The position numbers were made by a program, and so were the translations under genes. Below, one piece after another: positions 1,465 through 4,436 of a stretch of DNA of 7,658 bases (position 1 is the stretch's first letter; each line of letters begins with the position of its first letter). The notes under the pieces are model-generated. The model did no database searches, was not told where the DNA came from, and saw only the letters and a program-made list of their open reading frames with translations. The stretch is from Cellvibrionaceae bacterium (GTDB taxonomy: Bacteria; Pseudomonadota; Gammaproteobacteria; Pseudomonadales; Cellvibrionaceae), in the NCBI GenBank assembly GCA_027012915.1, contig JALUYN010000581.1, forward strand, positions 1 to 7,658. Direction: 5' to 3'.

Positions 1465-1490
1465 TTTTTCGCGAAAGCGTTACATACTTG

Positions 1491-1522
1491 GCCCAGGTTG
1501 GTTTCAATCTGGGCTTTTTTTT
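1491..1522 (+). terminator. Rho-independent terminator of rplM-rpsI
   Basis: GCCCAGGTTG (1491-1500) pairs with CAATCTGGGC (1505-1514) in a 10-bp stem with one G-T wobble and a GTTT loop, followed by eight T's (1515-1522). It ends the ribosomal operon and isolates it from the bc1 operon. Confidence 0.93.
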
Positions 1523-1612: not shown

Positions 1613-1699
1613 GTGCGCACTTTTTTGTGGGTCGTAAGACTGAATCGATGTAAGTCAGTGGGTTAGTGGCTATATTTAGTCATTTATCAGGGCTGTAAT

Positions 1700-1704
1700 G
1701 GGAG
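1700..1704 (+). promoter_or_regulatory. Ribosome binding site that decides the petA start
   Basis: GGGAG ends eight bases before the ATG at 1713. An upstream in-frame ATG at 1698 overlaps this site and has only a weaker AGGG at 1689-1692 before it. Starting at 1713 also gives an N-terminus (MSGDGVNEGRRRFL) that lines up with Rieske proteins of Pseudomonas as I remember them. Confidence 0.7.
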
Positions 1705-1712
1705 AAAGCGTC

Positions 1713-2312
1713 ATGAGTGGTGACGGAGTAAACGAGGGGCGTCGTCGTTTTTTAACAGCGGCTACCTGCGTAGTAGGTGGAGCAGGTGCCGTTGGCGCTG
1801 CCGTACCTTTCGTAGCATCTTGGAATCCAAGTGCCAAAGCAAAGGCTGCCGGTGCGCCGGTTAAGGCCAATCTCGCCAAGATTGAACCAGGTCAGATGGT
1901 GATTGTTGAGTGGCGCGGTAAGCCAGTCTACATCGTGCGTCGCTCGGCGGAGACTCTGGCGGATCTGGAAAAGATGGATAACCTGCTGCGTGATCCGAAT
2001 TCTGGAGAGTCCAAGCAGCCAGAATACGTTCAGGGCTTGGCTCGTACCATTGAGGGCAAAGAAGAGTTCCTGATCCTGCTGGGTCTTTGTACTCATCTGG
2101 GTTGTGCTCCTATGTATCGTCCGGAAGTTGGCGCAACTGACTTGGGTGGTGATGAGTGGTTGGGTGGTTTCTTCTGTCCTTGTCACGGTTCCAAGTTTGA
2201 CTTGGCTGGTCGCGTGTTTAAAGGCGTTCCAGCTCCAATCAATCTGGAAGTTCCTCCCCACAGATACGAATCCGACACCGTGATTACCATCGGTGTGGAC
2301 CAGGAGGCCTAA
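1713..2312 (+). CDS. petA: Ubiquinol-cytochrome c reductase Rieske iron-sulfur subunit
   Basis: This 199-residue protein holds the [2Fe-2S] cluster of the cytochrome bc1 complex, which takes the first electron from ubiquinol at the Qo site and hands it to cytochrome c1. The N-terminus carries a twin-arginine signal (R10-R11-R12-F-L) followed by an uncleaved membrane anchor at about residues 18-37, with the soluble domain in the periplasm. The cluster ligands sit in the two Rieske boxes: CTHLGC at 126-131 (C126, H128) and CPCHGS at 155-160 (C155, H158). C131 and C157 form the usual stabilising disulfide. The gene lies four bases upstream of the cytochrome b-c1 gene, whose ribosome binding site is inside the last petA codons, so expression is coupled. 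Length and motifs are normal. Confidence 0.97.
   Translation: MSGDGVNEGRRRFLTAATCVVGGAGAVGAAVPFVASWNPSAKAKAAGAPVKANLAKIEPGQMVIVEWRGKPVYIVRRSAETLADLEKMDNLLRDPNSGESKQPEYVQGLARTIEGKEEFLILLGLCTHLGCAPMYRPEVGATDLGGDEWLGGFFCPCHGSKFDLAGRVFKGVPAPINLEVPPHRYESDTVITIGVDQEA
2302..2307 (+). promoter_or_regulatory. Consensus ribosome binding site of the petB-petC fusion
   Basis: AGGAGG lies inside the 3' end of petA, nine bases before the ATG at 2317. It fixes that ATG as the start rather than the in-frame ATG at 2293, which lies within petA. Confidence 0.85.
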
Positions 2313-2316
2313 GATA

Positions 2317-4371
2317 ATGAGTAAATTCGAATCCTTTATGGCCTGGGTTGATGCGCGTCTGCCTGTTACTCGCGCATTCGAAGACCATATGAGCAAATAC
2401 TACGCGCCGAAGAATTTTAACTTCTGGTATTTCTTTGGTGTGTTGTCCATGCTGGTGCTGGTTAACCAACTGTTGACCGGTATCTGGTTGACCATGAACT
2501 ATACGCCTTCCGCTGAGGAAGCGTTTGCCTCCGTTGAGTACATCATGCGTGATGTGGATTACGGCTGGCTGCTGCGTTATATGCACTCCACGGGTGCTTC
2601 GGCGTTCTTTGTTGTTGTATACCTGCATATGTTCCGCGGCTTGATGTACGGCTCTTATAAGGCACCTCGCGAGCTGGTATGGATCTTCGGTATGACCATC
2701 TACCTGATCCTGATGGCTGAAGCTTTCATGGGTTATGTGCTGCCATGGGGACAGATGTCCTACTGGGGTGCGCAGGTAATTGTATCGCTGGCTGGTGCGA
2801 TCCCTGTAGTGGGTGAAGACCTGGTGCAGTGGGTACGTGGTGACTACTTGATCAGTGGTGCGACGCTCAACCGCTTCTTTGCTCTGCACGTTGTGGCGCT
2901 GCCTATTGTTCTGCTGGCTCTGGTTGTATTGCACATCCTGGCTCTGCACGAGGTGGGATCCAACAACCCTGACGGCATCGAAATCAAGAAGAACAAAGAC
3001 GAAAACGGTATTCCTAAAGACGGCGTGCCTTTCCATCCGTTCTACACCGTTCACGATCTGGTTGGTGTATCCGTCTTCCTGTTTGTGTTCTGTTTCGTGA
3101 TGTTCTTTATGCCTGAAATGGGTGGTTTCTTCCTTGAGTACGCTAACTTCGAAGAAGCTAACGGCCTGAAGACTCCTCCGCACATTGCGCCGGTATGGTA
3201 CTTCACGCCTTTCTACGCGATTCTGCGTGCTGTGACCTTCGATATTGGTCCTTTGAGCTCCAAGTTCCTGGGGCTGGTAGCTATGGGAGCTGCGATTGCG
3301 ATCTTGTTTGTACTGCCTTGGCTCGACAGAAGCCCTGTTAAGTCCATGCGTTACAAAGGCAACTTCAGCCGCATTGCGCTGCTGGTGTTTGCCGCTGCGT
3401 TCGTAATCCTGGGTTACCTGGGTGTTAAATCTCCTACTCCTGGCCGCACTATTCTGGCTCAGGTATGTACCGTGATTTACTTTGCGTACTTCATCGCTAT
3501 GCCGTTCTGGACTTCTCGTGAGAAGTGCTCTCCAGAGCCTGAGCGTGTACAAAGCAAAGGCTTGCCAGCAGGAATGGTATGGGGCGGCTTTATTCTCTTC
3601 GTACTGTTGACTGTTGTGCCGATTAAGGCTGTGGGCGCCGAGGGCGCCTTCAACTGCGGTAGCATCCAGTGTGATGAAATGGTTCCTGACCTGAAAGACA
3701 AAGAGTCTCTGCAAAGCGGTGCCAAGTGGTTCACCAATTACTGCATGGGTTGTCATTCAGCCAAGTTTTCTCGCTACGAGCGCGTAGCTGACGATCTGGG
3801 TATCCCTCACGAGCTGATGATGGATAACATGGTATTCGGCGATGAGAAAATCGGTGCACTGATGGAGATATCCATGGAGGCTAAGCAGTCCAAGGGCTGG
3901 TTTGGTGCAACTCCTCCGGATCTGACTCTGGTAGCTCGTTCTCGCTCTCCCGAGTGGCTGTACACTTACCTGCGCAGCTTTTATGCCGACGAAACTCGTC
4001 CTACTGGTGTAAACAACAAGGTTTTCGACAAAGTGGGTATGCCTCACGTAATGCTGGAGCTGCAAGGCCTGGCTGAGTGTGCGCCTGGTCCAAAGTTGGA
4101 TAGCCACGGTCACATTATTCGTGATCAGGTTACCGGTGAGCCAATCGCAGAAAACCCGTGTGGAACTCTGAAAGTAGGCGATATAAAAGGCTCCATGACA
4201 ACTGAAGAGTTCGACAAGGCTGTATATGACCTGGTGAACTTTATGGAGTACCTGGCAGAGCCTATCGCTGAAGAGCGCAAAGCTATTGGTGTATACGTTT
4301 TGTTGTTCCTGGTTGTACTGTTTGTGTTTGTTTATCTGCTGAATCGTGAGTACTGGAGAGACATCCATTAA
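2317..4371 (+). CDS. Fused cytochrome b / cytochrome c1 of the bc1 complex (petB-petC fusion, fbcH-like)
   Basis: One uninterrupted 684-codon frame encodes two bc1 subunits that are separate genes in most gammaproteobacteria. Residues 1-400 are cytochrome b, with eight predicted membrane helices (about 36-58, 90-108, 121-141, 187-208, 247-266, 317-336, 353-370, 379-397). The b-heme ligands are H90/H104 in helix B and H191/H206 in helix D. PVWY at 292-295 is the Qo-site motif. Residues 421-441 form a signal-peptide-like hydrophobic stretch ending in VGA. Residues 442-684 are cytochrome c1: the c-type heme site CMGCH at 476-480, probable axial M575 in GMPHV, and a C-terminal anchor at 657-675. 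With eight b helices the junction lies in the cytoplasm, and the ninth segment would put c1 in the periplasm, the correct topology whether or not the chain is cut. No internal stop or good internal start separates the halves. The alphaproteobacterial fbcH polyprotein is the known parallel. Confidence 0.96.
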   Translation: MSKFESFMAWVDARLPVTRAFEDHMSKYYAPKNFNFWYFFGVLSMLVLVNQLLTGIWLTMNYTPSAEEAFASVEYIMRDVDYGWLLRYMHSTGASAFFVVVYLHMFRGLMYGSYKAPRELVWIFGMTIYLILMAEAFMGYVLPWGQMSYWGAQVIVSLAGAIPVVGEDLVQWVRGDYLISGATLNRFFALHVVALPIVLLALVVLHILALHEVGSNNPDGIEIKKNKDENGIPKDGVPFHPFYTVHDLVGVSVFLFVFCFVMFFMPEMGGFFLEYANFEEANGLKTPPHIAPVWYFTPFYAILRAVTFDIGPLSSKFLGLVAMGAAIAILFVLPWLDRSPVKSMRYKGNFSRIALLVFAAAFVILGYLGVKSPTPGRTILAQVCTVIYFAYFIAMPFWTSREKCSPEPERVQSKGLPAGMVWGGFILFVLLTVVPIKAVGAEGAFNCGSIQCDEMVPDLKDKESLQSGAKWFTNYCMGCHSAKFSRYERVADDLGIPHELMMDNMVFGDEKIGALMEISMEAKQSKGWFGATPPDLTLVARSRSPEWLYTYLRSFYADETRPTGVNNKVFDKVGMPHVMLELQGLAECAPGPKLDSHGHIIRDQVTGEPIAENPCGTLKVGDIKGSMTTEEFDKAVYDLVNFMEYLAEPIAEERKAIGVYVLLFLVVLFVFVYLLNREYWRDIH
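3577..3639 (+). other. Internal signal-peptide-like segment at the cytochrome b/c1 junction
   Basis: Codons 421-441 encode VWGGFILFVLLTVVPIKAVGA, a hydrophobic core followed by V-G-A, a good -3/-1 signal peptidase I site before E442. This is where a free-standing cytochrome c1 would have its export signal. The linker before it (398-420) is short and polar. An in-frame Met (codon 420, base 3574) has only AAAGG 13 bases upstream and AGGA touching it, so separate initiation of c1 looks weak. Cleavage after A441 is inferred, not shown. Confidence 0.6.
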
Positions 4372-4398: not shown

Positions 4399-4436
4399 CG
4401 GGCGGACTGTTTTTGGCAGTCCGCCCGTTTGTTTTT
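4399..4436 (+). terminator. Rho-independent terminator after the bc1 operon
   Basis: CGGGCGGACTG (4399-4409) pairs perfectly with CAGTCCGCCCG (4417-4427), an 11-bp GC-rich stem with a 7-base loop, followed by a T-rich tail (4428-4436 and beyond). It lies between petBC and sspA, only 27 bases before the sspA ribosome binding site region. Confidence 0.93.

Follow-up and report, generated by a model that had tools for sequence, protein, structure and literature searches.

An old fusion of cytochrome b and cytochrome c1 genes, shared by Cellvibrionaceae and their relatives and probably undone at least twice

Introduction

Is a reading frame that joins cytochrome b to cytochrome c1 in a Cellvibrionaceae bacterium a local accident or the mark of a larger group, and what would become of its product? 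The frame lies in a stretch of 7,658 nucleotides (contig JALUYN010000581.1 of assembly GCA_027012915.1), here called the window. The original prediction, made from the letters of the window, had offered two origins, a clade-specific fusion or a local joining by loss of the petB stop, and had pointed to the fbcH architecture as a parallel. The fusion of b and c1 is an already known architecture (FbcH). In Bradyrhizobium, the FbcH precursor is cut at the junction into two subunits. In the literature searched (most subscription journals lie outside it), we found no description of a gammaproteobacterial b/c1 fusion, of its distribution, of a trace of its fission or of a cassette exchange within it. 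Databases do already list fused gammaproteobacterial members, for instance as 'ubiquinol-cytochrome c reductase'.

Results

A single gene for cytochromes b and c1

The gene, petBC, is a single uninterrupted frame of 684 residues that starts with ATG at 2317 and ends with TAA at 4369-4371, with neither an internal stop nor a frameshift (Table 1). Three Pfam domains lie in the one protein, Cytochrome_B (residues 27-214), Cytochrom_B_C (280-389) and Cytochrom_C1 (530-682), and together with the frame they confirm the fusion that had been read from the letters. The Rieske gene petA is located directly upstream, its 3' end separated by 4 nt from the petBC start codon, and an AGGAGG sits 9 nt upstream of that ATG. 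The window carries, in order, zapE/AFG1 (cut), rplM, rpsI, petA, petBC, sspA, sspB, cysK (reverse) and a gene with a Yip1 domain. As read from the window sequence, petA-petBC is flanked on both sides by terminator-like stems; these two are the longest of the scan, which gave 5 stems in the window versus a mean of 4.0 in shuffles, single stems being weak evidence.

Table 1. Features of the petA-petBC locus, in positions of the window
Feature	Position	Strand	Basis
Terminator-like stem downstream of rpsI, 11 pairs	1490..1515	+	stem scan
petA, Rieske iron-sulfur subunit	1698..2312	+	TIGR01416 230 bits (cut-off 97.4), Pfam
AGGAGG, likely ribosome binding site of petBC	2302..2307	+	sequence reading
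petBC (fbcH-type): cytochrome b, junction helix and cytochrome c1, 684 aa	2317..4371	+	frame, translation, Pfam
Cytochrome b portion (residues 1-411), modelled with eight membrane helices	2317..3549	+	Pfam, model helices
Qo motif PVWY, residues 292-295	3190..3201	+	translation, alignment
Apparently exchangeable cytochrome b C-terminal segment, about residues 331-410, short form here	3307..3546	+	alignment, trees
Junction helix, residues 418-436 (418-443 in model)	3568..3624	+	hydropathy, model
Predicted signal peptidase site V439-G-A441 / E442	3631..3642	+	motif reading
Heme c motif CMGCH, residues 476-480	3742..3756	+	translation, alignment
Invariant M575, candidate for the axial ligand of heme c1	4039..4041	+	alignment
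Cytochrome c1 C-terminal membrane anchor, residues 657-675 (helix 651-681 in model)	4285..4341	+	hydropathy, model
Terminator-like stem downstream of petBC, 13 pairs	4399..4427	+	stem scan

H90, H104, H191, H206, W294-Y295, C476/C479/H480 and M575 are invariant in 50 aligned fused proteins, that of the window included; from their roles in the family we take the histidines, C476/C479/H480 and M575 to be heme ligands. The b histidines, Qo motif, CMGCH, methionine and anchor listed in the original prediction are all in place. The canonical Qo motif of bc1 is PEWY. The window has PVWY, not PEWY, and PVWY is also found in the P. aeruginosa bc1 structure 8smr and in most of the split and fused relatives listed, so that PEWY does not define this branch. 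Alignment, family assignments and fold together recover all hallmarks of bc1, namely the four b-heme histidines, the Qo site, CxxCH, the C-terminal anchor and a Rieske partner; by these residues and the cofactor binding they predict, the window encodes a proteobacterial ubiquinol:cytochrome c oxidoreductase (bc1). In a fold search the cytochrome b of 8smr, the closest solved structure, ranked first (76% identity; TM-score 0.84, normalised by target length), and the c1 chain of that structure came at rank 50 (51% identity, TM-score 0.69). The P. aeruginosa enzyme differs in having separate chains and a 403-residue cytochrome b without a junction helix.

At the start of mature c1, a CX4C pair (CGxIxC, residues 447-452, nt 3655-3672) is present in at least 90% of the 50 aligned fused proteins. 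The pair also occurs in the split loci L129, L131 and L135 and is absent from several other fused proteins; it could possibly form a disulfide.

The junction is predicted to be a membrane helix followed by a cut

An AlphaFold model built from a 50-row alignment (mean pLDDT 66.6, pTM 0.64) has eight helices, which we assigned to helices A-H of cytochrome b, then a ninth helix at the junction and finally the anchor. With pLDDT of 88 and 84 for residues 421-440, the junction helix is one of the more reliably modelled regions. With eight helices in the membrane, cytochrome b ends on the cytoplasmic side, and a further crossing by the junction helix is needed to bring c1 out; by helix parity in the model the c1 part is predicted to be periplasmic. 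Behind the junction helix, 61/69 fused rows show a plain [AV]xA site and 8/69 lack one; the motif alone gives modest support, because 59% of shuffled tails have it too. Taken as a whole, the modelled order of eight helices, junction helix, V-G-A site, c1 and anchor predicts a single precursor cut by signal peptidase.

No conserved internal start was found at the junction, a start codon with a Shine-Dalgarno sequence occurring in 2/69 junctions versus 7/276 control stretches. This comparison rules out separate synthesis of c1 from a conserved internal start, and it helps the plausible idea that b and c1 synthesis would be held at 1:1.

The fusion is shared by many lineages of the order

A homologue search with the fused protein showed that all of the best 120 of 7999 scored proteins carry both domains. 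The closest among the matches listed is from 'Candidatus Pelagadaptatus aseana', with 91% identity over the whole length, and other names among these 120 are Simiduia, Gilvimarinus, Teredinibacter, Marinimicrobium and Cellvibrionaceae bacterium. A scan of named genomes gave 23 fused and 57 split loci by frame reading among the best 80 of 592 loci. The fused ones belong to Cellvibrionaceae, Halieaceae, Porticoccaceae, Zhongshania, Pseudohongiella and unplaced gammaproteobacteria; the split ones comprise every Pseudomonas, Halomonas and Marinobacter locus read, plus betaproteobacteria.

In a GTDB sample of the order (145 genomes, 137 with a bc1 match), reading of the DNA identified 46/137 loci as fused (31 short form and 15 long form, see below) and 25/137 as split; for the remaining 66, frame length was the sole basis for calling them split, and two of these, G053 (cut at a contig end) and G122 (not listed), are doubtful. 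Among the matches listed for a class sample (185 genomes, 153 with a match), the centre genome holds the only stop-free fusion, and four other long frames proved to be split once their DNA was read. In a phylum sample (249 genomes, of which 221 gave a match), the matches listed include three stop-free fusions, all from the order. A long open frame is itself no proof of fusion, as G063 (735) and G096 (736) were found split on reading the DNA.

In all, fused loci were found by reading among Cellvibrionaceae, Halieaceae, Porticoccaceae, Spongiibacteraceae and Pseudohongiella-like lineages. A large and mostly marine set of bacteria shares the fusion, which is old and no local accident. A technical or local joining in one genome, by assembly error or a lost stop codon, has a negligible probability and is ruled out by conservation in the best 120 homologues listed and in dozens of independent assemblies. 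The suggested loss of the petB stop therefore falls; the junction in the window has neither a stop nor an indel, and close relatives are fused, not all separate.

Two further observations concern names and arrangements. The gene fbcH carries the label 'cytochrome b/c1 subunit' in one report (PMC12456017). The same name is given to P0122, P0139, P0141 and others, proteins of about 427-444 aa without a c1 domain, so the label alone does not prove a fusion. In Marinobacterium (L015) and several other genomes, petB and petC lie in the same frame with a single stop between them, an arrangement close to fusion; we draw no frequency for its betaproteobacterial cases, as the search may favour single long matches.

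Some split relatives keep the junction helix

In the split loci L117, L127 and L138, cytochrome b has 40-41 extra residues past PERV/PDRI, and petC comes next with its own signal peptide. The extra tails resemble the junctions of fused proteins (69 rows; median z 7.3, up to 15.3) and show no likeness to the N-termini of separate c1 proteins (95 rows; median 0.5, at most 4.0). L194 and L197 are also split relatives in which the junction helix is the ninth helix of cytochrome b.

A search with the L117 protein (P0242) gave 121 rows including the query, the best 120 of 8000 scored, of which 20 are split, 98 fused and 3 shorter with an incomplete c1; P0243, 99% identical to P0242, bears the name BD1-7 clade bacterium. 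Every one of these 20 split cytochromes b retains the junction helix. In seventeen a short tail comes after it, whereas P0265, P0314 and P0345 end at the predicted cut. The DNA behind P0265 was not met among 390 genomes sampled, where its nearest matches are fused (83%). In a cytochrome b tree, six fused rows (the P0250 group) fall between split ones with weak support (85), a position that one fission alone would not give.

The BD1-7-type split bc1 (P0243; G063, G577, G021, G096, G150) resembles the fused enzyme in that its cytochrome b reaches 87% identity with fused relatives and carries a homologue of the junction helix at the C-terminus; it differs in a stop after a short tail (mostly ..AAAH), followed by petC with its own signal peptide. 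Their sequences suggest that one re-split lineage, of the BD1-7 type, keeps the former junction helix as the ninth helix of cytochrome b.

Trees place split lineages among fused ones

We then compared trees from different sets of genes, the groups for the AU tests having been chosen after earlier trees had been seen. The b-c1 trees (78 rows) require 4 changes of the fused state, and one fused clade is not rejected by AU (p=0.361; 0.473 and 0.385 in two subsets). In the tree of flanking genes (zapE, rplM, rpsI, petA, sspA and sspB; 48 rows), the split L117, L127 and L138 lie in a 16-row, otherwise fused clade (93/90), with AU values above 0.05 (p=0.085 for all fused rows, 0.181 without L104). 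With all genes of the locus together (44 rows), 3 changes are needed and one fused clade is rejected (p=0.0199).

The tree of RpoB and RpoC (40 genomes, 2751 columns) places four nine-helix genomes (100/100) inside an 11-row clade (92/92), and the split G038, G077 and G078 inside a 16-row clade (96/95); a 29-row clade (96/99) holds both split groups. Of the four nine-helix genomes, two (G063 and G577) are nearly copies of each other, and the nine-helix split state of G577 and G021 was confirmed by reading their DNA. A single clade of fused genomes, G094 left out, is rejected by AU (p=0.00012). The fused G094 (L104) lies outside the main fused clade of the RpoB and RpoC tree and at the base of the fused rows in the tree of all locus genes, and it may represent a separate fusion or a horizontal transfer.

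Because the RpoB and RpoC tree puts split lineages inside the fused assemblage, we conclude that the fusion is ancient and has probably been lost again on at least two occasions; taken by themselves, neither the b-c1 trees nor the flanking-gene tree would compel this conclusion. The proposed clade-specific fusion holds insofar as many lineages of the order are fused, and fails insofar as split lineages nest inside them.

A segment of cytochrome b appears to have been exchanged

Fused proteins come in two lengths, a short form of about 684 residues and a long form of about 740. What sets the long form apart is an insert of 66 columns behind residue 400, present in 45/45 long and 0/75 short proteins (120 proteins; P0073, of 648 aa, was dropped by length from the comparison), and the insert holds two membrane helices, as judged by eye. 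On quick trees, the form changes 14 times when residues 1-300, 411-684 or both are used, 14-21 times on six 90-column control stretches, and once on residues 316-405 with the insert excluded (98). Two pairs of opposite forms illustrate the pattern. P0013 and P0066 are 99% identical over residues 1-300, 94% over 446-684 and 66% over 341-405; the corresponding values for P0009 and P0047, both from Simiduia, are 100%, 92% and 66%. When pairs are 90-100% identical outside the segment, mean identity inside it is 96.5% for the same form (27 pairs) and 67.0% for opposite forms (3 pairs). Exchange of the segment by recombination apparently explains these protein comparisons better than slow co-adaptation.

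Discussion

We consider it likely that petBC is a vertically inherited FbcH-type gene of the respiratory bc1, that its precursor is cut, and that its history comprises one old fusion and at least two later splits. One b/c1 precursor would be inserted in the membrane, and the junction helix would carry the c1 part to the periplasm, where signal peptidase I would cleave after A441 and heme c would be attached to the c1 part. The products would be a nine-helix cytochrome b of about 50 kDa and a separate c1 of about 27 kDa (calculated from the window sequence, heme not counted), as opposed to about 77 kDa for the uncut chain; formed at about 1:1, they would assemble with the Rieske protein to an ordinary ubiquinol:cytochrome c oxidoreductase. 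The trees suggest one old fusion near the base of an assemblage of Cellvibrionaceae, Halieaceae, Porticoccaceae, Spongiibacteraceae and Pseudohongiella-like bacteria, and at least two later splits, one of which would have left the junction helix on cytochrome b.

Alternatively, the chain might stay uncut as a single 684-residue subunit in which the junction helix and a linker hold c1 to cytochrome b. The comparatively good prediction of the junction helix in the model would fit such a tether, as would the modest excess of [AV]xA over shuffled tails, but a V-G-A/E-type site recurs widely at the periplasmic end of the helix, the cytochrome b of three split relatives terminates at that very point, and the FbcH of Bradyrhizobium is cut; an uncut chain is accordingly quite improbable. 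The other question is the direction of change. If fusions had arisen repeatedly, the split cytochrome b with nine helices seen in BD1-7-type bacteria would represent a stage before fusion and not a trace of fission. Fusion looks easy, given the in-frame petB-petC pairs with a single stop outside the fused group (L015 and several other rows), and repeated gains agree with the b-c1 and flanking-gene trees that leave one fused clade unrejected, with the separate place of G094, and with the weakly supported P0250 group. However, by our count on the RpoB and RpoC tree about 6-7 changes, all of them gains, are needed if fusion is irreversible, versus 4 with fission, and the split groups nest inside supported fused clades. 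Repeated fusion is therefore unlikely, and one old fusion with later splits is the reading that we prefer.

The same one-frame order of b and c1 behind a Rieske gene, as described for the FbcH of Bradyrhizobium and related alphaproteobacteria, bears out the parallel drawn at the outset. FbcH differs in belonging to another bacterial class, and the window branch has PVWY, short and long forms and nested natural split relatives. In a search for an alphaproteobacterial fused gene, no fusion was seen in three plasmid regions read from the 40 listed of 100 records, and no c1 domain was found in 120 listed homologues of an alphaproteobacterial cytochrome b. The nested position of the window branch among Pseudomonadales speaks for a separate origin of its fusion.

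The gene is also, in our estimate, probably a mosaic, the last helices of cytochrome b (the F/G/H region) forming a two-state cassette that recombines between species, in a fusion that is reversible and whose re-split lineages keep the ninth helix. If true, this would be an unusual recombination inside an essential membrane enzyme, and it would hint at a frequently changing partner or environment that is served by the two extra helices. A core respiratory enzyme that was fused and then naturally re-split offers a ready comparison of the effect of fusion on assembly and stoichiometry, and the split cytochromes b that keep the junction, or stop at it, predict both the position of the cut and a nine-helix mature subunit.
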